Positions 1-16,557 of a DNA stretch of 25,578 nucleotides are shown one piece after another (within the stretch, counting starts at the first letter, position 1; the number at the start of each line of letters is the position of its first letter). Source of the stretch: a virus; the IMG/VR virus record IMGVR_UViG_3300043774_000267, positions 1-25,578 of that record; one strand, given 5' to 3'. The position numbers and the translations under genes are program-made. The notes under the pieces were generated by a model. That model was not told where the DNA came from, did not search any database, and worked only from the letters and a program-made list of their open reading frames with translations.

Positions 1-706
1 CACGAAGAATCTTGTTGAATGGGGTCTTGGAGATGATTGCGTCGTAACGCGCTTCTTGTTCCTCAATGCTCATTTCAAACGAAACGAACATGGGAATCTT
101 GCCATGGATGTGGCAAGAGTTAGCAATGATAAGAGCAAACAAAGACTTACCACGCTTTGGCTCACCCACGAATACAACGAACTGTTGCGGTCTGAGACCT
201 GAAGTAATTCTGTCTAAACCAAAGAACCCTGTTGGGATACCGCGCAGGGAGTTTGGTGTGCTACGCATTTCTTCGTAGCGCATAACGCGAGTTTCCCAGT
301 TTTGGATGATGTCAATATCCCGCATGCGGGACACTTCAACCGCGGCTGTTTGGATACCAACCGTCAGTGTGTCTAGGGCATCTTTGGTACGACCAACATT
401 CAACAATGGCATTGTTGTTGAGATGACCTCAATCAAACGGTGCTGAGTATGCGCCTGAAAGATTTCCTCAATGAGTCGTGAGAATGTTTCAGCCTCGGCG
501 TCATACAACTGGATGTCGGCGTACTGTGACTTGAATACACGCGCTGTTGGTACGGCATTGTGTTCTCGGTAAAAGCCCGTAAGCCAATGCCACACGCCCT
601 GCCATGTATCTGAGAAGTGTTCTTCCTTGACTCCAGATTTTAACGGCGTTGCAATATCTGCTGTTTGGATGATCTTTGAAACTAGGAGATGTTCGGGGGA
701 CGACAT
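1..706 (-). CDS. DnaB-like replicative helicase, C-terminus cut by window edge
   Basis: The first 235 residues of a replicative DNA helicase that unwinds the fork 5' to 3' as a hexameric ring. An N-terminal helical region (about residues 1-110) precedes a RecA-like core. The core starts with IPTGFFGLDRITSGLRP and has a Walker A loop GEPKRGKS with the nucleotide-binding lysine at residue 187. It continues with FVSFEMSIEEQEARYDAII, the usual FxSLEM-type motif of DnaB. Walker B and the C-terminal part lie to the left of base 1. It is the last visible gene of the leftward initiator-loader-unknown-helicase cluster and starts 2 nt after the preceding stop. The family call is firm; the full length is unknown. 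Confidence 0.93.
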   Translation of the reverse strand, partial: MSSPEHLLVSKIIQTADIATPLKSGVKEEHFSDTWQGVWHWLTGFYREHNAVPTARVFKSQYADIQLYDAEAETFSRLIEEIFQAHTQHRLIEVISTTMPLLNVGRTKDALDTLTVGIQTAAVEVSRMRDIDIIQNWETRVMRYEEMRSTPNSLRGIPTGFFGLDRITSGLRPQQFVVFVGEPKRGKSLFALIIANSCHIHGKIPMFVSFEMSIEEQEARYDAIISKTPFNKILR

Positions 707-708
707 GA

Positions 709-1143
709 TTACCACGCTCTTTCGGAACCAAGCACTGTAGCGCGTATCCCAATGATTGCTTGCTGTTCTTGGGTGGCAACATAAATAACATGAATACTTC
801 TGTTGAAGCGTAGGTCTTCTGCCAATGTTTCAATGTCAGGGTAAGCCTCTACCGAAGTAGAAACACCTTTGCGGATTAACCAATGCTCAATTTCGGGAAC
901 TGCCTCAACTGGCATGAGCGTGTAAATCAATGTGCCAATACCACGGCGGTTTACTGAATCAATTAGAGACTTCAGTGGTAGTTCGTTTGGCTTCATGGTG
1001 TTAACCAGTGTGGGCATGTCTTTGGCTTTTGATGCAAACCAGTTGCGTACTGACTTTGCACCTTTTGGGTAACTTGCTAAGACTCCCTCAAACAAAACTG
1101 CTTGCTGGATTGGTGCGTATGGGGCTAGGTCATTGCCCTGCAT
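709..1143 (-). CDS. Unknown 144-residue protein of the replication cluster
   Basis: I do not recognise this protein with certainty. It sits between the helicase loader and the DnaB-like helicase, and its ATG shares one base with the loader stop (TGATG), so it is translated with that module. The middle and C-terminal part alternates short hydrophobic strands and helices: TLIYTLMPVEAVPEIEHWL, then IHVIYVATQEQQAIIGIRA. This could be a small Rossmann or HAD-like fold, with the end resembling the last strand region of phage HAD-like proteins. No complete catalytic DxD motif is visible, so no activity is assigned. A role in replication or nucleotide metabolism is inferred from position only. Confidence 0.75.
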   Translation of the reverse strand: MQGNDLAPYAPIQQAVLFEGVLASYPKGAKSVRNWFASKAKDMPTLVNTMKPNELPLKSLIDSVNRRGIGTLIYTLMPVEAVPEIEHWLIRKGVSTSVEAYPDIETLAEDLRFNRSIHVIYVATQEQQAIIGIRATVLGSERAW

Positions 1144-1736
1144 CAGGACACCGTGCTGATCGTCATGTCCTCTAGAACAGTTGCAACACGATCACCGTAG
1201 CGCCGAACAAATTCGGTTGGGGACAGGCATGTTGTAATGATTGTTTTACGAAGGTCCTCATTGCGTCGGCGCAATAAACTCCCGATTTCATGTTGTGAGA
1301 ATTCAGTTGATCGTTCATCCCCAACTGCATCAAGCACGACAATGTCAAAAACACCCTTGAGGTACTTGACGATGTGTGGCATGGAGTACATCTCGGGAAG
1401 TTCGTTATCGTTGTCAAACTGGTCCTTGAGCATCTCAACATAGCGATCTGCCGTAATGAACCGACCTGAAGCAGATTTGTTTGTGAGGATGTCCCGCAAG
1501 ATAGATACTGCGATTGGGGTCTTGCCAGCACCGCTTGGTCCATGCAAAAACAAACCGTTGGATTCACCGCTGATGAACTTAGCGATGGCGTTAAAGGTCT
1601 TGTCTGAAATCAGAGATTCTTCGTACTGGGCGTCTTTCCAACGCGGTGGGAAGTTGGCCCATGCAAGTCGCTCCTCAAGAGGTCGGTTCTGCCACCATCG
1701 TGCTGATTTCCATTCGGTCGGCGGTGCTGAGGTCAT
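1143..1736 (-). CDS. DnaC/IstB-like AAA+ helicase loader
   Basis: An AAA+ ATPase of the DnaC family, which delivers the replicative helicase ring to the origin, as lambda P or bacterial DnaC do. Walker A is GPSGAGKT with lysine 72. Walker B is FDIVVLDAVGDE with aspartate 136, where the usual second acidic residue is alanine 137. A sensor-type stretch KTIITTCLSPTEF and an arginine-rich RRYGDRVATVLEDM follow, as in DnaC, where IASR-type arginines read the nucleotide state. The length of 197 residues is short but normal for phage loaders. Its start lies inside the end of the initiator gene (ATGA overlap), with AAGGAG upstream, so initiator and loader are translationally coupled. This is the lambda O-P arrangement. 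Confidence 0.88.
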   Translation of the reverse strand: MTSAPPTEWKSARWWQNRPLEERLAWANFPPRWKDAQYEESLISDKTFNAIAKFISGESNGLFLHGPSGAGKTPIAVSILRDILTNKSASGRFITADRYVEMLKDQFDNDNELPEMYSMPHIVKYLKGVFDIVVLDAVGDERSTEFSQHEIGSLLRRRNEDLRKTIITTCLSPTEFVRRYGDRVATVLEDMTISTVS

Positions 1737-2983
1737 GTTGTGGTTCTCCTTGTGAGTTGATAATTAACTACGGCTTGCTTGAGTGATGGTGCTAACTCAC
1801 GCAAGTTCTTGCGGGCAAGAATATCTTCGGGGATGGCAATCCCTGCGTCGGTCAAGATACTACGCACAGGAGCCAGTTCGTTGTCAAGCACTGTCGTGCA
1901 GTTTGTGATGAGGAAGGATGCTGACTGGATTAAAGTATCAAAAAACGAGATGTCTTCAAATGCCACTTCTGCGATACCCACCAGCAACTCGGGGTATCTG
2001 TACGCGACATCCATCCCTCGCCTCCAAATAATCTTTTGCATTTTTTGATTAATGTCTTCGTCCCATGGGAGATCGGAGCCATGCTGAAAATCGTCGGATA
2101 CCCACCCCAGTATCGGGGAGTTCTGCGAGACCCCCGTCATTTTGGACATCATCCCTGTTTGGACTTCTCGGGAACAAAAGACTCGCCATGGCGCTGGGGA
2201 TTCAATGTTCCGTGATAGGGCAAAGAATTCCTCGGTCATCTTGGTCAGGTCGGGGACCTTGACCCCAGCGTTGATTAGGCGCTTGATCTGAGCGCGGAAT
2301 GCTGGGCGCTCCCCCGTGGGGGTTATCTTCCCACCAACCCTGCGGGCGGTGAGTTCAAAGTGGTCTAGGACTTGTGAGACTTCGCTGGTTGTTTTCTTCA
2401 GGGCGATGGTCTCATCCCATGGTCGGTCGTTGTCGGGGTCAGCACCAAAAGTGGGCATAGGTTCTCCTTGTTGTTTTTTCGGGCGAAGCCCACAAAGGAA
2501 AATGTCGTTAGACATTTTCCTTTGTACTATATCTAAAGTACTATCTATAGAGACGCGTTCCCCCTGCTCACAGCCTCGTGGGGGGTTCACTGGTGACCCC
2601 CCTGGTAGGTCACTGGTGACCCCCCCTTTGGGGGTAGGCAGGTCACTGGTGACCCCACCTTTGCGTAGGGCTAGGTCACTGGTGAACCCCCCTTTGGGCT
2701 TGCGGTAATTGACAATTATGCTCTTCCCACGGTTCGCTGAAAGTATGGTTGATGTTACTACTTTGTGTAACTCTAACCACTTAATTGATCGTTTAACCGT
2801 AGAAGGTGACAGTCCTGAGATTCCTGAGATGTCGTCAATTGTCATAATCGGATTGCCGTCAAAAGGGGTCAAGCGGATGATGCACATGAGGATATGGGAG
2901 TGGGTCGGATTGCCCTTTTTGGTGATCAAATCAATCGCCCATATTGGGACCGCGGCAAACGGTCCGTTAAGTTTTCTAGACAT
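1733..2983 (-). CDS. Replication initiator, O-like, with winged-helix-type N-terminus and internal origin
   Basis: Probable origin-binding initiator. Residues 15-85 look like a winged helix: a conserved-looking start (GPFAAVPIWAIDLITKKGN), then MTIDDISGISGLSPSTVKRS as the helix-turn-helix and a basic wing. Residues 97-135 are four copies of a KGG(V/F)TSDL unit, encoded by the DNA iterons. Residues 176-416 form a separate acidic/helical module that may contact the loader encoded next. The ATG has GAGGAG upstream at good spacing. A second ATG at 2458 (residue 176) has its own AAGGAGAAC and could give a 241-residue short form. The initiator call rests on the HTH, the iterons and the adjacent DnaC-like gene; I cannot name a sequence family for the C-terminal half. 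Confidence 0.82.
   Translation of the reverse strand: MSRKLNGPFAAVPIWAIDLITKKGNPTHSHILMCIIRLTPFDGNPIMTIDDISGISGLSPSTVKRSIKWLELHKVVTSTILSANRGKSIIVNYRKPKGGFTSDLALRKGGVTSDLPTPKGGVTSDLPGGSPVNPPRGCEQGERVSIDSTLDIVQRKMSNDIFLCGLRPKKQQGEPMPTFGADPDNDRPWDETIALKKTTSEVSQVLDHFELTARRVGGKITPTGERPAFRAQIKRLINAGVKVPDLTKMTEEFFALSRNIESPAPWRVFCSREVQTGMMSKMTGVSQNSPILGWVSDDFQHGSDLPWDEDINQKMQKIIWRRGMDVAYRYPELLVGIAEVAFEDISFFDTLIQSASFLITNCTTVLDNELAPVRSILTDAGIAIPEDILARKNLRELAPSLKQAVVNYQLTRRTTT
2456..2471 (-). promoter_or_regulatory. Internal ribosome binding site and start in the initiator gene
   Basis: In the minus-strand reading the sequence is AAGGAGAACCTATG, with the ATG at 2458-2456 in frame with the initiator (residue 176). 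It closely resembles the ribosome binding sites of true gene starts here, for example AGGAGAACAACATG at 5928. It would make a 241-residue C-terminal product. Confidence 0.55.
2492..2525. repeat. Perfect 15-bp inverted repeat with 4-nt loop
   Basis: ACAAAGGAAAATGTC at 2492-2506 pairs without mismatch to GACATTTTCCTTTGT at 2511-2525, with GTTA between. It lies within coding sequence, where such symmetry is unlikely by chance. It has no T tract on either side, so it does not look like a terminator. On the initiator mRNA it would form a hairpin about 20 nt before the internal ribosome binding site. Confidence 0.9.
2585..2687. repeat. Four palindromic iterons GGTCACTGGTGACC
   Basis: Copies lie at 2585-2598 (GTTCACTGGTGACC), 2608-2621 and 2641-2654 (both exact), and 2674-2687 (GGTCACTGGTGAAC). 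Each is an inverted repeat GGTCAC/GTGACC around a TG spacer, so each could bind a dimer. Steps are 23, 33 and 33 nt, about two to three helical turns. The outer two copies each carry one mismatch, the inner two are perfect. Flanks also share CCCCCCTTTGGG. The repeats stay in frame and encode the KGG(V/F)TSDL protein repeat. Confidence 0.9.
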
Positions 2984-3191: not shown

Positions 3192-3635
3192 ATGGCGACA
3201 GCCCCAGCCCTTACCAAATCCCTCAAAACCCTGTTATCTGACACCGTCACTTTCTACTTCATGGCGCACGGATTTCACTGGAATGTTGAGGGTTCTGACT
3301 TCAGCCAGTACCACGGTCTCTTCGCAGAAATCTATGAAGATGCATATGCGATGATTGACCCAGTGGCTGAGAACATCCGCAAACTGGATGATTATGCGCC
3401 GTTCAATCTTCAGAAGTTTATTGATCTTCGGACACTTGAATTCAAAGAAGTAAGTCCGAATCCTAAGGCAATGTCAACGGCATTGTTGAAGGCTAACGAG
3501 GCGCTGATCACTCAGTTAAATGCCTCATTCAAAGAAGCAAACAAAGCCGACCAGCAGGGTATTGCAAACTTCTTATCCGAGAGGGTTGACAGTCAAATGA
3601 AATGGTCATGGCAACTACGAGCATCGGTTAAGTGA
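3192..3635 (+). CDS. Dps-like ferritin (DNA-protection family)
   Basis: Dps proteins form 12-subunit shells that oxidise and store iron and often bind DNA, shielding it from peroxide. The family signature is clear: HGFHWNVEG, then FSQYHGLFAEIYEDAY, then MIDPVAEN, and a C-terminal SQMKWSWQLRASV. By spacing against E. coli Dps, ligands H51, H63, D78 and E82 correspond to H29, H41, D56 and E60. The D67 position is alanine 45, with a glutamate at 46. The 147-residue length is at the short end of the family, and the N-terminus lacks a long lysine tail. GGAG lies 7 nt before the ATG. It heads a plus-strand cassette inside an otherwise leftward genome, which suggests an acquired accessory gene. Confidence 0.9.
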   Translation: MATAPALTKSLKTLLSDTVTFYFMAHGFHWNVEGSDFSQYHGLFAEIYEDAYAMIDPVAENIRKLDDYAPFNLQKFIDLRTLEFKEVSPNPKAMSTALLKANEALITQLNASFKEANKADQQGIANFLSERVDSQMKWSWQLRASVK

Positions 3636-3645
3636 GGTAACCATC

Positions 3646-3936
3646 ATGGTTGAAAAGAATAAATACACACGCAGTGGGGAAACCTTCTCGGGTTATAACA
3701 AGCCGAAGGCAACACCTGATCATCCCAGCAAATCACATGCGGTCCTTGCAAAGCAGGGAGAGACCGTCAAGTTGATTAGGTTTGGTGAGCAAGGCGCCGA
3801 GACAGCAGGAAAACCCAAAGAGGGAGAGTCTGAGCGTATGAAGGATAAGCGCGCATCGTTTAAGGCTCGCCACGGTAAGAATATTGCTAGGGGTAAGATG
3901 AGCGCGGCATATTGGGCCGACAAGGTGAAATGGTAA
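3646..3936 (+). CDS. Small basic protein with SAAYWADKVKW tail
   Basis: A 96-residue, lysine- and arginine-rich soluble protein of unknown function. Visible parts are SHAVLAKQGETVKLIRFGEQ (about residues 30-49), a charged linker, and a C-terminal block KARHGKNIARGKMSAAYWAD followed by KVKW. From memory, small proteins ending in this block recur in environmental tailed phages, but I cannot name a characterised member. GAGG lies upstream of the ATG, 10 nt after the Dps stop, so it is co-expressed with Dps. The charge would allow nucleic-acid binding; that is inference. Confidence 0.8.
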   Translation: MVEKNKYTRSGETFSGYNKPKATPDHPSKSHAVLAKQGETVKLIRFGEQGAETAGKPKEGESERMKDKRASFKARHGKNIARGKMSAAYWADKVKW

Positions 3937-4199
3937 TGGCTCCCCGTAAAGCAGAAAACCCAAAGAGAACAGCAAAGTATTACCGAGATCATCCTGAGGC
4001 TCGGGAGAAAAAGGCTGAGACAGATAAGAAATTTAACGCTAAGCCCGAACAGAAAGAGAAGCGCCGCGAACTCTCAGAAGAGCGACGCAAGCGTGGCATC
4101 ATGGGTAAAGGCGGAGATGATCTGTCCCATACCAAAGATGGTAAATTAGTTAAGGAAGACCCATCTAAGAATCGCGCCCGTAACCGAGGAAAAAAGTAA
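3936..4199 (+). CDS. Small highly charged protein of the Dps cassette
   Basis: An 87-residue protein, nearly all charged helix, of unknown function. It opens with PRKAENPKRTAKYYRDHPEA, continues as a long K/E/R-rich helix, and ends with DDLSHTKDGKLVKEDPSKN plus RARNRGKK. The ATG at 3936 shares a base with the preceding stop (TAATG) and lies 8 nt after AAGGTG. An ATG at 3930 is possible but would sit only 2 nt from that site. Composition suggests DNA or RNA contact or an extended partner of a capsid protein. No enzyme motif is present. Confidence 0.78.
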   Translation: MAPRKAENPKRTAKYYRDHPEAREKKAETDKKFNAKPEQKEKRRELSEERRKRGIMGKGGDDLSHTKDGKLVKEDPSKNRARNRGKK

Positions 4200-4201
4200 T
4201 C

Positions 4202-4369
4202 ATGGCTGCTAAAAAGAAGGTATGGGAAACCAAAGACCCCACTAAGTCTGATAAGAAACTAACCCCCGATCAGAAGGCTAAGGCAAAAGCCGCCGCCAAG
4301 GCCGCAGGCCGGCCTTACCCTAATCTTGTTGACAATATGAATGCATCTAAGAAAAAAAGTGGTAAGTAG
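4202..4369 (+). CDS. 55-residue lysine/alanine-rich protein
   Basis: A very small gene, MAAKKKVWETKD at the start, then an H1-histone-like stretch QKAKAKAAAKAAGRPYPNLV and a basic end NASKKKSGK. AGGAAA lies about 10 nt before the ATG, the gene starts 2 nt after the previous stop, and its TAG overlaps the GTG of the next gene (TAGTG). That coupling on both sides is why I accept it despite its size. The Ala/Lys helix resembles bacterial and phage histone-like tails, so DNA binding is plausible but unproven. Confidence 0.72.
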   Translation: MAAKKKVWETKDPTKSDKKLTPDQKAKAKAAAKAAGRPYPNLVDNMNASKKKSGK

Positions 4370-5001
4370 TGCCCGAATTAAATGCAAACATTCCTGTTAT
4401 TGAATGTTTTGTCCGTGGTAACTATTTGCGCGATCAGCGTGATAGCCATGATCTCAAGTTTCCATGCATGATCTTTGGGGTAACTTCAATACAAGGAAGA
4501 AGCCCACTGTTTCATTTTCTTATGGAAGATGGTGGCGTGTGGTGGCGTATGCCAATTTCAGCCTTTTGTTCTCGTGAAGATTCTCCTGAGGTTGATATTC
4601 ACGAACTTGTCCTTTGGAACTCTTTTTCGGCAAACATTGCTGTCACTGAATTTCAGGCTATGCGAAATATGCGTATGACATATGTTGCCCGTTCAGGAGA
4701 ATTTGTCAACGGCAAATACCTTTTTACGCTTGATTGGCACTCTCCAGACGACAATGTGCTTAACGGTGGTTTTTCTTTGAACCCTGGTCAGCACAAATGT
4801 GGTCATGTCATTGAAAGAGATGACGGCAACTTTGCAATCCAACCAAACAACAGAGTGCGTTTGTTTGACCCGTCATTTACCACTAAAACTGGCACCCTTA
4901 TTGAGCGTCTTGTGAATACAAGAAAATGGGATACCGAAGATGCTCACAAGTGGGTAACTTCTGATGATGACCGCTACGAATACGAAGTTAAAAAGAAGTG
5001 A
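4369..5001 (+). CDS. Unknown 210-residue protein ending the plus-strand cassette
   Basis: I do not recognise a characterised family. The start is GTG, overlapping the previous stop by one base. The protein is globular and rich in aromatic and beta-forming residues, with a striking core LKFPCMIFGVTSIQGRSPLF and VWWRMPISAFC at residues 30-70. YLFTLDWHSPDDNVL comes at about 117-131 and HKCGHVIERDDGNFAIQPNN after 140. Cysteines and histidines at C33, C67 and HKCGH might hold a metal but do not form a standard finger. A strong hairpin terminator follows the stop at once, so this is the last gene of the unit. Confidence 0.75.
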   Translation: MPELNANIPVIECFVRGNYLRDQRDSHDLKFPCMIFGVTSIQGRSPLFHFLMEDGGVWWRMPISAFCSREDSPEVDIHELVLWNSFSANIAVTEFQAMRNMRMTYVARSGEFVNGKYLFTLDWHSPDDNVLNGGFSLNPGQHKCGHVIERDDGNFAIQPNNRVRLFDPSFTTKTGTLIERLVNTRKWDTEDAHKWVTSDDDRYEYEVKKK

Positions 5002-11965: not shown

Positions 11966-13786
11966 TCAGATTGCGTTGAAATTGAAATGTCTGTGACATA
12001 TATTGTCTGCGGTTGTTTCCGTATAAAACTTAATTATCTTTGAAAATGTTGATTTATCAGAACTACCTGGTTTAGAAATAGTTGCAGAAAAATGTACTTC
12101 AAAGTCCATAAGTATTTTTGTAGTCTTCCAATTATCAGCATTAGAACCTTCTAAATATAATTTGTTGGCAAATAAGTCTGACGCACCTGAATCTTTAAAC
12201 ACATTGTTAGGTCTATTATCGTGACTCGGTATTTTATTTGTATCATCACTTCCATACCTAGCCCATTTTTTCCATTCTTCAAAAGTTGTTGCAGTTGCCT
12301 TTTCTCCCTCAACATTTAATAAAAGAACATCACGAGATACACTGTACTTTTTAGTCCCTGGCCCTATTTTCTGACCTGATGTTGTTTTCTTTTCAGGGTC
12401 AGCATTTGCAAATTCTTTTTCTGTTCCTACAAATTGTCGCCATATTTTAACTTTTGGAGTATGCTCAATTTTTACATCGTATTGCCTTTCAAAGAACAAT
12501 TTAGAAATACCCTTGTAAACTGGTGCATCTCTTGGTCCTGATTTAAGAGTTACAAACCCAGCAACTAGCAAAAAGGTACCATAATGTAATATTTCCCAAA
12601 CATCCTTGTAACCTTTCCACTGTCCGACAGGATTGTATGATTTGTGCTCATCGGGGTCCCCAAAATAAGCAGTTTTAATGAGTTCATCAAATGCAGGGTG
12701 ATCTGAATCGCTAGTACCACCAAGTGCTATTTGGTACATTCCCGAATCTTTAACTGCCTTTACAAGTACATCATAATCAGCACCTTTTTTATCTTCAGGT
12801 AATGTGTCACCACCACCACCACCACCACCAGAGGTTGGCGGTGCGGATTTTATTTTACCTAGTGCTTGTGTTAGGTATGTATCTTTTTGTGCAAATCCAA
12901 TGTATTTTGCTTCAACCGTCACATTAATGGTACACATAGTAGGAACCATTTGAGTACTAAATTTAGTGAAGTTAACAGATGATGATTGAATAAAACCATC
13001 AACCATGAACATGGCTGAGAAAACAATACGAACAGGCGTACTAACTAGAAAAGCACTGTTACCCTTAATTGATTTAAACGCATCAGATGCTACTTGTTCT
13101 GAAATATAATTAGTATTACCAGATGCACCTGATGAAGAGTCCGCAGGTTCCCAGGTACTAGAAACACTGGTAATTTTAGACAGGGCAGAAATAATATCTT
13201 CAGATATACCTTGACCAATAACACTGTCCATAACCATTAGGTCTGCAAGCACACCAATTTGCCCTACATCCTGGGGGCCTGGTGGTTTACCTACATTCTT
13301 ATCCGCTGGCCTGTCTCTGTAGTTTTTCTTATGATTATTAACTTCCATTTCTCGGTTAAGCATGATATCAAAAGAGAAAGTGGCATTACCAGGAGTTGCT
13401 ACTGAGAACTGTCCCGGGTCTTGAAATAGTATGTTTGTCATACCACTAGAAAGTGAGACACTACGCATAATACGCTCAGGGTTAAACTGAAAAAAGAAGC
13501 GTCGGTTAGGGAGACCTTTTGCTGCACTAGTTGGTACTTCATTTAATAAGCACCGCATAAACCCACGCTGTATTTTACTTGCATTTGGAGAAAATAGTCT
13601 TTGATCTCCGTCAAGACCAATATTTCTACGCCTATCCTGCGCTCCAGGTACGACCGAACCCGGGAACATAAACCTAGGGTTGTCGTCAGTAGTGCGAGTG
13701 AAACTATTGTGATTTCCAGGGCCAGTAACTCCATTTTCTAAGTTGTACCACTGGTTTGTTGTATAAGACTCATTTGCCTGTGCCAT
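11966..13786 (-). CDS. Tube-cap / CIS-tube-like protein with long unknown C-terminal region
   Basis: Residues 75-310 resemble the N-terminal domain of contractile injection system tube-cap proteins (Afp7/PVC7 type; T4 gp48/54 role). The blocks are RRFFFQFNPERIMRSVSLSS, then NATFSFDIMLNREMEV, a VGVLADLMVMDS-type helix, and PVRIVFSAMFMVDGFIQSSS with VNFTKFSTQMVPTMCTINVT. These proteins cap the tube end and receive the LysM domain. Here the LysM part is encoded separately next door. After a run of seven glycines (about residues 320-326) comes a lysine-rich region of about 280 residues (to 606) that I do not recognise; its DNA looks more AT-rich than its neighbours. The gene overlaps the tape measure stop (TAATG). 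Confidence 0.75.
   Translation of the reverse strand: MAQANESYTTNQWYNLENGVTGPGNHNSFTRTTDDNPRFMFPGSVVPGAQDRRRNIGLDGDQRLFSPNASKIQRGFMRCLLNEVPTSAAKGLPNRRFFFQFNPERIMRSVSLSSGMTNILFQDPGQFSVATPGNATFSFDIMLNREMEVNNHKKNYRDRPADKNVGKPPGPQDVGQIGVLADLMVMDSVIGQGISEDIISALSKITSVSSTWEPADSSSGASGNTNYISEQVASDAFKSIKGNSAFLVSTPVRIVFSAMFMVDGFIQSSSVNFTKFSTQMVPTMCTINVTVEAKYIGFAQKDTYLTQALGKIKSAPPTSGGGGGGGDTLPEDKKGADYDVLVKAVKDSGMYQIALGGTSDSDHPAFDELIKTAYFGDPDEHKSYNPVGQWKGYKDVWEILHYGTFLLVAGFVTLKSGPRDAPVYKGISKLFFERQYDVKIEHTPKVKIWRQFVGTEKEFANADPEKKTTSGQKIGPGTKKYSVSRDVLLLNVEGEKATATTFEEWKKWARYGSDDTNKIPSHDNRPNNVFKDSGASDLFANKLYLEGSNADNWKTTKILMDFEVHFSATISKPGSSDKSTFSKIIKFYTETTADNICHRHFNFNAI
12808..12830. repeat. Triplet microsatellite coding for poly-glycine
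   Basis: Nearly eight units of CAC on the plus strand, read as GGT glycine codons in the tube-cap-like gene. It marks the joint between the recognised N-terminal domain and the unrecognised C-terminal region. Gain or loss of whole units would only change linker length. Confidence 0.85.
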
Positions 13787-16557
13787 TATGCGTTCCTCAT
13801 ATTCCTTAATCGCATTTCGCGCTCAATAATCATTGTTACCTCACGAGCAATAATCTGTGCGTCAGCCTGCGGATTACCACTTCCGTTTACATTAATTACT
13901 GGTGAGATGTTAAAAGTTGCTCCACCTTGGAAAGTAGCACTTCCACCACTACGGGCAGACCCCATTGCTACAGGGTCACCTGTTTGGGCAGAACTAGTCT
14001 GAGGTATCTTGCGTGACTGAAGCACCTCTGCCATAACCTTGTTGCCACCCCAACCGGAATACATCTTGTTCACGGCTTCTGCGACAGCATAAGGATCGTT
14101 ACTATTATTTGTTAGGGCGTTAATAACACGCTTACCGTAGTTCTGCATATGGAACACATTCATACGGAGACCTTGCTCATAACTAGCAAAGTTCTTTACA
14201 CCTGATCCATCATTATTAAACTTTGACCATTGCCCCAATGCCACATCGGCGGGGTCTTTTGGAGCACTCTTAACAGCCAATGGGTTATACGCCGCACGAG
14301 TACCCTCACTAGCAATCCATGCTGACATGGCTTCTAGGTTTGAAGCAGTCACGGGTGCACCAACACGATTTAAGAAATCAGTAGACCATTGTTGGATGTC
14401 AACACCACTACGGGCCATACCTCCATTAGTAAATGCGCCAGTAAACGCTCCTGATGTACTTGTCGCTGTGCCAACGCCTCGTCGTCGCCGTGGGCTACCC
14501 GAACCACCACTTAGACCAGTAGAGCCAAGGAAACCACTCGCTCGGAACGCAGAGATAGCATCAGCCATGCTCATACCCGCAAAAGATGCAGTAGTTACGC
14601 CTGCGTTAGTTGTACCACCACCTCCGTAAGCACCATCAGTGTGTTCAGTTCTTCCAGATGAGACACCTCCTGATGACATTGGCTCACCACCCCAAGGGCG
14701 GCCCTGCTTTTCGTATTCAGTACGACCATTAGGAAGTTCCGATGGCTGGACATGCCAAGGCTCCCCCATACTTTCAAAGTGCTTCAAACCAAAGCGGGCG
14801 GCATTAGCGGTAACCCAACTCATGTCACCAGTTAAGTCAGCCGCAAGACCAATTTCGTGCATTGAGCGACCAGGGGGAGCGGCTTGAGCACCACTCACAT
14901 GCTCCCAGTAAGAGCCATCCCATTCCCAGTTCTTTTTACCTTCAGCATCCACAGGGCTAGAGGTCTTACGATAACGCGAGCGGAACATAGTTTCTTGGGC
15001 GGCTTTACTACGGTAACCTGTACCCAATCCAACTTTTCCACCAGATGCGGCAATTAGTTGATCCACACGCTGTTGCATGGTAGGGTGCATTTTCCCTGAA
15101 CCACCCGATGTGTTTGGATCACCAGTTTTACCCATTGAGGGTAGATTACGACCAGGACCTGGGTCACCAGCAGCAGGAGCATCCATAGCACCACCGAATG
15201 CAGTTGCAAGACCACCAAGTATCATTAATGGCACACCAACAGCGGCGCCAACACCAGTGGTAGAAATAGCCGCACCAGCCATCATTGCGGCTGGACCTAA
15301 TGCTTTAAGTATACCACCAGTCGCCTTTCGCTGAGGCTTGGTTTCAATAGCCTTACCAACAATTCCTGAAAGCCTATCCTCAAGTCTCCCAAATGCCTGT
15401 TCAAGGCTTTGAGTTGTCTTTTCAAGTTTGGCAAAGTTGTCCTGTTGACGACCATAGAAATCTTCTTCGCGCCCAGTTTTGACGCGCGTGGTTTCTTCAA
15501 TTTGTGTAGCGAAGTTGTCTTCAATACCGACAAACTCCCTCTGAGACTTGCTAGAAGGGTCATACATACCCTTGCCACCCTTAGCACCATACTGCTGGTT
15601 TGCCATTGCATATTGGATAACTATGTCTTGAGTGGCAGAGTCAATACCCATATCTGCTAAGCGGGAACGCGTATTACTACCTTGCTGTAAGGCACCGCCA
15701 GGGTTTCTGAGATTAGTTAAACCTGATGCTCGCGCTAGGTTTTGGATAACTTCAGTACCACTACGCTGACCACCCCCAGGCATATATAGACTTTGACCAG
15801 TCATCATGAACATGCGGTTAGTAGTTTGGGCGCTACCTAAACTAGTAAGCATATTAGTAACACCCTCAGCACCGAGGCTATATCCCGATAGAGCATTTAA
15901 GCCCTCAACAGTGGATGCATTACCAAGAGCACTAATACCAGTAGATGCCTGCATTCCCATTAAGGCATTAATACCATTAGTACCGAGGCGGTAGTTAGTT
16001 AATGGTTGGCGGTAAGCATTACGGACACCAGCATTACTGAGACCAGTAATTTGTTGATACATAACTGACATCTTGTCGGCTGATGATGAATATTCATAAC
16101 CTCGCGCAATACGCGAATCCATTGCCGCAACACCAGCGCCAACCACATTACCAATAGCCATTGCCGCACTCGTGAATGCTCCACCACGACTTTGTTGCAT
16201 TACCTCCATCGCAGACATGCGACGATTACCACCACTTGCGGCTGGATCAAGACTGTAATTAGTGTTACTACTAGTGGTGGATGTTGGACCACTATTAACC
16301 ATTACTGGGTGACCTTGGCTACCCTGAGCAACACCAGTGGTGACACCCCCAATAGCGCCAACATTAAGCCCCTTTAGAGCGGCGGCGGCTTTAGTTCCTT
16401 TGGCAGTAATGGCATCTAATGATCTAGCAACACCAGCAAGAGCAACCGACAATGAAGTTGCCTCCCGTGTCATCTTTGCAAGACGACTTCCTCCGCCAGT
16501 GATTGGGGTAGGGGTAGCGCCATTTCCTGCTATGTTTGGTTCATTTGGCGGTGCCAT
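13786..16557 (-). CDS. Tape measure protein with M15 peptidase and lysozyme-like domains
   Basis: At 923 residues, directly downstream of the tail chaperone, this is the probable tape measure that fixes tail length. After an Ala/Gly/Ser-rich N-terminus come a charged coiled-coil-like region (about 340-405) and a hydrophobic stretch (about 419-458) that could insert in a membrane. Residues about 490-615 are a VanY/M15 D-Ala-D-Ala peptidase: GLGTGYRSKAAQETMF, SMHEIGLAADLTG and GEPWHVQP, giving zinc ligands H567, D574, H602 and catalytic E599. Residues about 715-870 look lysozyme/transglycosylase-like: SAWIASEGTRAAYNPLA with likely acid E751, then FASYEQGLRMNVFHMQNYG. Both would open the cell wall for DNA entry. 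GGAGGG precedes the ATG. Confidence 0.85.
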   Translation of the reverse strand: MAPPNEPNIAGNGATPTPITGGGSRLAKMTREATSLSVALAGVARSLDAITAKGTKAAAALKGLNVGAIGGVTTGVAQGSQGHPVMVNSGPTSTTSSNTNYSLDPAASGGNRRMSAMEVMQQSRGGAFTSAAMAIGNVVGAGVAAMDSRIARGYEYSSSADKMSVMYQQITGLSNAGVRNAYRQPLTNYRLGTNGINALMGMQASTGISALGNASTVEGLNALSGYSLGAEGVTNMLTSLGSAQTTNRMFMMTGQSLYMPGGGQRSGTEVIQNLARASGLTNLRNPGGALQQGSNTRSRLADMGIDSATQDIVIQYAMANQQYGAKGGKGMYDPSSKSQREFVGIEDNFATQIEETTRVKTGREEDFYGRQQDNFAKLEKTTQSLEQAFGRLEDRLSGIVGKAIETKPQRKATGGILKALGPAAMMAGAAISTTGVGAAVGVPLMILGGLATAFGGAMDAPAAGDPGPGRNLPSMGKTGDPNTSGGSGKMHPTMQQRVDQLIAASGGKVGLGTGYRSKAAQETMFRSRYRKTSSPVDAEGKKNWEWDGSYWEHVSGAQAAPPGRSMHEIGLAADLTGDMSWVTANAARFGLKHFESMGEPWHVQPSELPNGRTEYEKQGRPWGGEPMSSGGVSSGRTEHTDGAYGGGGTTNAGVTTASFAGMSMADAISAFRASGFLGSTGLSGGSGSPRRRRGVGTATSTSGAFTGAFTNGGMARSGVDIQQWSTDFLNRVGAPVTASNLEAMSAWIASEGTRAAYNPLAVKSAPKDPADVALGQWSKFNNDGSGVKNFASYEQGLRMNVFHMQNYGKRVINALTNNSNDPYAVAEAVNKMYSGWGGNKVMAEVLQSRKIPQTSSAQTGDPVAMGSARSGGSATFQGGATFNISPVINVNGSGNPQADAQIIAREVTMIIEREMRLRNMRNA

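Follow-up and report, generated by a model that had tools for sequence, protein, structure and literature searches.

A very probable theta-type replication origin inside the initiator gene of an uncultivated contractile-tailed phage

The stretch of phage DNA analyzed here (the window, 25.6 kb) contains at positions 2459-2695 a block that is very likely the theta-type replication origin of the phage, embedded in the gene for its own initiator protein (Table 1). The phage is an uncultivated virus with a contractile tail and a genome of about 92 kb, and the sequence suggests that the block is very probably a lambda-style theta origin in working order. We favor this reading for several reasons: the iterons persist in two reading frames at a limited set of spacings while synonymous sites are frozen over the block; changes in the dyads are compensated, the iteron cluster is unique in complete relatives of about 92 kb, genes for a helicase loader, DnaB and primase adjoin, and the order of the elements matches that of lambda; finally, the predicted structure of the initiator comprises a winged helix-turn-helix (wHTH) domain, a disordered linker and a helical domain, and the wHTH domain of relatives matches phage replication-initiation profiles. 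The anatomy of the block, its conservation as DNA and its gene context were observed directly.

Table 1. Positions of the initiator gene, the putative origin elements and the adjoining genes in the window
Feature	Position	Strand	Basis or description
DnaB-like replicative helicase, cut by window edge	1..715	-	open-ended ORF
144-aa protein between loader and helicase	709..1143	-	ORF
DnaC/IstB-type AAA+ helicase loader	1143..1736	-	PF01695, E=9e-8 (above cut-off); phrog_50 DnaC-like loader, E=2.7e-24
Initiator gene	1733..2983	-	416 aa; open frame; wHTH N-domain, linker coded by putative origin, helical C-domain; HTH_24, E=2e-5
Candidate internal ribosome-binding site with in-frame ATG	2456..2469	-	AAGGAG 2464-2469; ATG 2456-2458 = codon 176; 241-aa C-terminal product predicted
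Whole putative origin block	2459..2695	-	codons 97-175; suppressed synonymous change
Small GC hairpin beside dyad	2481..2491	-	GGGC-TTC-GCCC; invariant in close group; folds in single-strand DNA folding
Perfect 15-bp inverted repeat (dyad), 4-nt loop	2492..2525	.	sequence; compensated changes; folding
A/T-rich segment, candidate unwinding element	2526..2560	.	66% A+T; best 30-mer 77%
Iteron 4	2585..2598	-	GTTCACTGGTGACC; other reading frame, GGSPVNPP
Iteron 3	2608..2621	-	GGTCACTGGTGACC; read as GGVTSDL
Iteron 2	2641..2654	-	GGTCACTGGTGACC; read as GGVTSDL
Iteron 1 (first in gene direction)	2674..2687	-	GGTCACTGGTGAAC; read as GGFTSDL
Winged-HTH DNA-binding domain	2705..2947	-	codons 13-93; profile matches and AlphaFold model

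Results

The first 3 kb of the window represent, on the minus strand, a replication operon with genes for the initiator, the loader, the 144-aa protein and a DnaB cut by the window edge; with its continuation in a relative, the order is initiator, loader, 144-aa protein, DnaB and primase, then PolA. The initiator gene of relatives is found in the same gene order, and in the window as in relatives the loader gene follows directly downstream, overlapping the stop codon of the initiator gene. The loader contains the Walker A motif GPSGAGKT and agrees with both the AAA+ domain and the IstB/DnaC models; profile searches with the 144-aa protein yielded no credible family match. The full-length DnaB of a complete 91.4-kb relative (G001) matches DnaB_C (E=2.7e-33), and the operon of this relative goes on with genes for a primase (Zn-ribbon and Toprim), DNA polymerase A and RecA. 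Divergent from the initiator gene lies a ferritin/Dps-like gene (3192-3635, plus strand; PF00210, E=2.5e-15; phrog_3636), and a run of short lysine-rich ORFs is present at 3646-4370 (plus strand), with a strong AT skew of +0.28 in the 3501-4500 bin.

An earlier note, made from the letters of the window alone, had described four palindromic iterons with one mismatch in each outer copy, and both their coordinates and their sequences agree with our analysis. The unit is an interrupted palindrome whose part kept in relatives is GGTCA-N4-TGACC, and the start-to-start spacings in the window are 23, 33 and 33 bp. As iteron 4 is located 23 bp from iteron 3, it falls into another reading frame; the proposal that the iterons also encode a KGGVTSDL-type peptide repeat thus holds for three copies (GG(V/F)TSDL) and fails for the fourth. 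When the initiator gene was recoded synonymously, at least four near-perfect sites arose in only 5 of 1000 trials (mean 0.85 sites). A cluster of three to four sites occurs only once in each of three complete relatives with end repeats (91.4, 92.5 and 92.8 kb) and likewise in one partial 74-kb contig.

Searches of IMG/VR recovered 31 loci with the loader and 48 loci with the initiator as query (the two sets overlap), and the initiators of these relatives range from 100% down to about 25% identity to that of the window. Three to four mid-gene copies of the palindrome were present in all genes examined, down to the lowest of these identities; two of the copies in the L100 lineage are degenerate in one half-site. 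The encoded peptide is GVTSDP where the site lies in one frame, but GSPMTL or GSRVT where it lies in the second, and both frames are used in each of 18 genes. The third frame is never used, because TGA would then be read as a stop codon. Spacings across relatives are restricted to 22, 23, 33, 34 and 45 bp, which are near multiples of 11 and therefore fit sites on one face of the helix. The earlier note had named the loss of the palindromes with retention of the peptide as an outcome speaking against an origin; the opposite was found, with the palindromes kept and both peptide and frame changed. A tandem-repeat or coding artefact, that is, a Gly/Thr/Asp-containing peptide repeat in which palindromes arose by chance, would account for the three window copies that lie in in-frame 33-nt repeats encoding KGG(V/F)TSDL, yet it is at odds with this switching of frames, with compensated changes in the dyads (see below), and with the finding that, for each of the 18 genes, no more than 1.6% of the synonymous recoding trials arrive at the observed number of sites. 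We therefore consider it extremely improbable.

Conservation at the DNA level extends beyond the iterons. In the close group of relatives, synonymous identity reaches 0.93 in the iterons and 0.91 in the A/T-rich segment plus dyad, compared with 0.47 in the N-terminal and 0.55 in the C-terminal domain, and sliding windows over codons 97-175 gave values of 0.78-0.99. The extent first proposed for the feature (2492-2687) was hence too small, the conserved block covering about 2459-2695. These patterns show that it is the DNA of the block that is conserved, and not its peptide.

An A/T-rich segment between the iterons and the inverted repeat is present as had been noted, although modest in the window member (66-77%), where it overlaps the dyad in part; at the same place relatives show 70-87% A+T, the distant ones 80-87%. 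By eye only, repeats of about 13 nt (AGATACTAAATAG / AAGTACTAAAGAG / ATAGTAAAG) can be seen in the A/T-rich part of L100 and its relatives, which recall origin 13-mers.

The perfect 15-bp inverted repeat, likewise noted before, was found inside the initiator frame and is the longest perfect one in the window. In 200 synonymous recoding trials the longest inverted repeat was at most 13 bp, typically 6-8 bp, and never 15 bp, and single-strand DNA folding of 2456-2560 gave z = -6.1. The dyad occurs in three sequence variants that differ at two positions of the stem, a change in one arm being matched in the other each time. This large dyad is confined to the close subfamily; most of the distant relatives are without it but have dyads of the type GCCGC-NN-GCGGC in a comparable position. 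Two compensated changes were seen in these as well, so that both dyad types show two-sided changes preserving the pairing. One of these changes (L114) converts the peptide AASG into VASD while preserving the pairing, so that here the dyad is conserved and the peptide is not. Shuffles reached the compensated-change counts in 50 of 500 and 20 of 500 cases, the weight of these counts being limited by the small number of variants.

The AlphaFold model of the initiator (mean pLDDT 65) consists of the wHTH domain (residues 13-93), a low-confidence middle part (82-197) and a helical C-terminal domain (192-415). The middle part is presumably disordered, as far as a model of low overall confidence allows this assignment. 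Since the putative origin encodes this predicted disordered part, its sequence is free to determine that of the peptide; the idea that one sequence serves two roles is thus correct only in part, the peptide being a predicted linker that tolerates either frame. Within the wHTH domain, the recognition region is nearly invariant (S59, T62, K64, R65, S66, W69, L70).

The assertion that the initiator is not recognizably an O protein was borne out: it did not match PF04492 (Phage_rep_O), which was also missing among the families shown for a set of 19 members, whereas lambda O as a control matched at 5.7e-36, and hhalign of the window initiator against lambda O gave a probability of 0.2% and no alignable similarity. 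The window initiator alone did not match the PHROG phage initiator families. In relatives, the N-terminal domain matched phrog_270 (replication initiation) in 17 of 19 members (best 6.9e-12) and phrog_678 ('O-like') in 15 of 19 (best 4.7e-8), in both cases mainly over the HTH, where generic HTH families match too; 'O-like' PHROG families are also matched by lambda O. As to whether the shared layout arose separately or drifted far, these shared matches make distant kinship of the wHTH domain likelier than a wholly separate invention. Fold searches against PDB and BFVD returned essentially generic winged-HTH matches, the one exception being an uncharacterized protein of an 'uncultured Caudovirales phage' that is similar over its length; a sequence-based search turned up no solved lambda O structure. 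Judged from these comparisons, the initiator would work like lambda O, although its sequence does not place it in the O family.

Profile similarity of the wHTH to CRP-type HTH domains, together with palindromes of a size expected for the operator of a dimeric regulator, would also be in line with the protein regulating its own gene or operon from these sites, with replication starting elsewhere. However, the sites are found some 300-400 nt into the gene, away from the promoter, a helically phased array of three to four copies is iteron-like, and a conserved A/T-rich stretch and dyad follow, with the loader, DnaB and primase genes beyond. An operator function in place of an origin is thus improbable.

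A further feature adjoins the block. A candidate ribosome-binding site precedes an in-frame ATG that stands exactly where the frozen block ends, and a Shine-Dalgarno core is located 5-8 nt before the equivalent Met codon in 14 of 18 genes (7 of 9 lineages), its codon phase shifting, compared with 7 of 197 other internal Met codons. Recoding yielded equally strong Shine-Dalgarno motifs in 3-40% of trials; such motifs are fairly easy to obtain because the peptides are Glu-rich. A C-terminal isoform starting here is a possible prediction, and we regard the internal start as a lead rather than a finding. As the main function of the block it was rejected, since two lineages have the iterons but lack the internal start. 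In a rival reading the block would mainly be an mRNA or translation element, in which hairpins and the internal Shine-Dalgarno motif control the C-terminal isoform, with only a secondary role for the iterons; the strong hairpin, the conserved motif and Met codon, and the end of conservation at the ATG would agree with this. It leaves unexplained, however, why the iterons switch frame and peptide but keep their helical spacing, and the internal motif is missing in the same two lineages. The internal start fits better as an addition than as a replacement, and we judge this reading highly improbable. A combination of the two functions is conceivable but rather unlikely: in addition to acting as origin, the block would serve as a translation-control leader, with the internal start giving rise to a 241-aa isoform without the DNA-binding domain and the origin region setting its ratio to the full-length initiator. 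If true, a short form that only binds the loader would represent a built-in brake or a loader-delivery factor.

Neither the window protein nor its L100 relative had an initiator relative among 50,697 phage records of isolates, genome contigs scanned for relatives contained none, and literature searches yielded no publication on these phages. The closest counterparts of capsid (59%), sheath, PolA and DnaB belong to Streptomyces phage BRock and related phages, a hint that the host may be an actinobacterium. BRock (L120, 26000-60000) showed neither a counterpart of the initiator nor an iteron array near its DnaC-like loader, and an exchange of the initiation cassette seems to have taken place. 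Elsewhere in the window, a 923-aa tail-region protein (13786-16557, minus strand), tape-measure-like by position, contains a VanY-type D-Ala-D-Ala carboxypeptidase domain (PF02557), which is likely its cell-wall-cleaving part.

Discussion

Based on the anatomy of the block and by analogy with lambda, a plausible sequence of events would start with winged-HTH dimers of the initiator binding the GGTCA-N4-TGACC palindromes on roughly one face of the helix. The bound initiator would wrap or bend the DNA, leading to opening of the adjacent A/T-rich stretch, and the C-terminal domain, tethered by the flexible linker coded by the origin, might recruit the neighboring DnaC/IstB-type loader. The loader would deposit the phage-encoded DnaB on the unwound strand, with the phage primase and PolA to follow. 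The dyad would bound the origin and could perhaps serve priming or strand choice, either by forming a hairpin or by binding a protein. GC and AT skews of four long relatives were weak and noisy, with no consistent turning point at the site.

The family offers an unusually clean natural experiment, as the iterons slide between two TGA-avoiding frames with their helical phasing kept, and this sliding separates selection on DNA from selection on protein codon by codon.

The principle of an origin within the initiator gene is already known from lambda O and pSK41 Rep. In lambda, the origin in the middle of O comprises four iterons and an A/T-rich tract needed for unwinding (PMC7466680), and on the iterons O assembles into the O-some (PMC3985674). 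Analyzed with the same script as the window, the lambda O gene shows iterons at nt 349-433 in three frames, 83% A+T at nt 445 and an imperfect 28-bp inverted repeat at nt 477-504; the corresponding elements of the window gene are located at nt 297-399, about nt 424-462 and nt 459-492, so that the lambda-like layout claimed in the earlier note, with iterons, A/T-rich segment and inverted repeat in the same order in mid-gene, is confirmed. Both systems also have an N-terminal DNA-binding domain, iterons in several frames and an overlapping loader gene immediately downstream. They differ in iteron sequence and in the membership of the initiator in PF04492; the loader of the window is of the AAA+ DnaC/IstB type instead of P, its phage group brings its own DnaB, primase and PolA, its dyad is a perfect 15-bp repeat, and the iterons of the family are spaced by 33 and 45 bp besides about 22 bp.

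The Rep protein of the staphylococcal RepA_N plasmid pSK41 has four Rep boxes centrally in its gene, and the part encoded there is a linker (PMC5703833), which, together with the N-terminal DNA-binding domain, resembles the arrangement in the window. However, pSK41 is a plasmid, its Rep belongs to another protein family and is described with a DnaG-primase interaction domain, whereas in the window loader and helicase genes adjoin.

Pseudomonas phage KLEP17-4 and Lactococcus phage r1t likewise have an initiator gene followed by a DnaC-like loader, and in r1t 15-bp repeats lie inside the initiator gene. In KLEP17-4 (L050), an unnamed gene (1498-2298) before the loader contains CAGCAGGTGAACA repeats with 11/22-bp spacing, then a 9-bp inverted repeat, and by its sequence this gene probably holds another in-gene origin. 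Both are candidate origins only; they share no iteron sequence with the window, and their repeats are direct whereas those of the window are palindromic.

Two in-frame Rep proteins are made in the case of RK2 TrfA. Plasmid pIGRK also encodes two in-frame Rep proteins (RepR/RepR') with opposite roles, the short form of which still binds DNA (PMC6854812). The possible internal start in the window would similarly lead to an N-terminally truncated initiator, but the predicted short form would be without the HTH.

Compared with these systems, new features are an initiator family outside Phage_rep_O combined with an AAA+ loader and phage-encoded DnaB, primase and PolA. The lambda arrangement, with the origin in the linker of the initiator, thus appears in an environmental phage group that has a non-O initiator and its own loader, helicase, primase and polymerase, and it provides a group of which we found no cultured member with a compact replicon, only a few kb long, that lends itself to testing.
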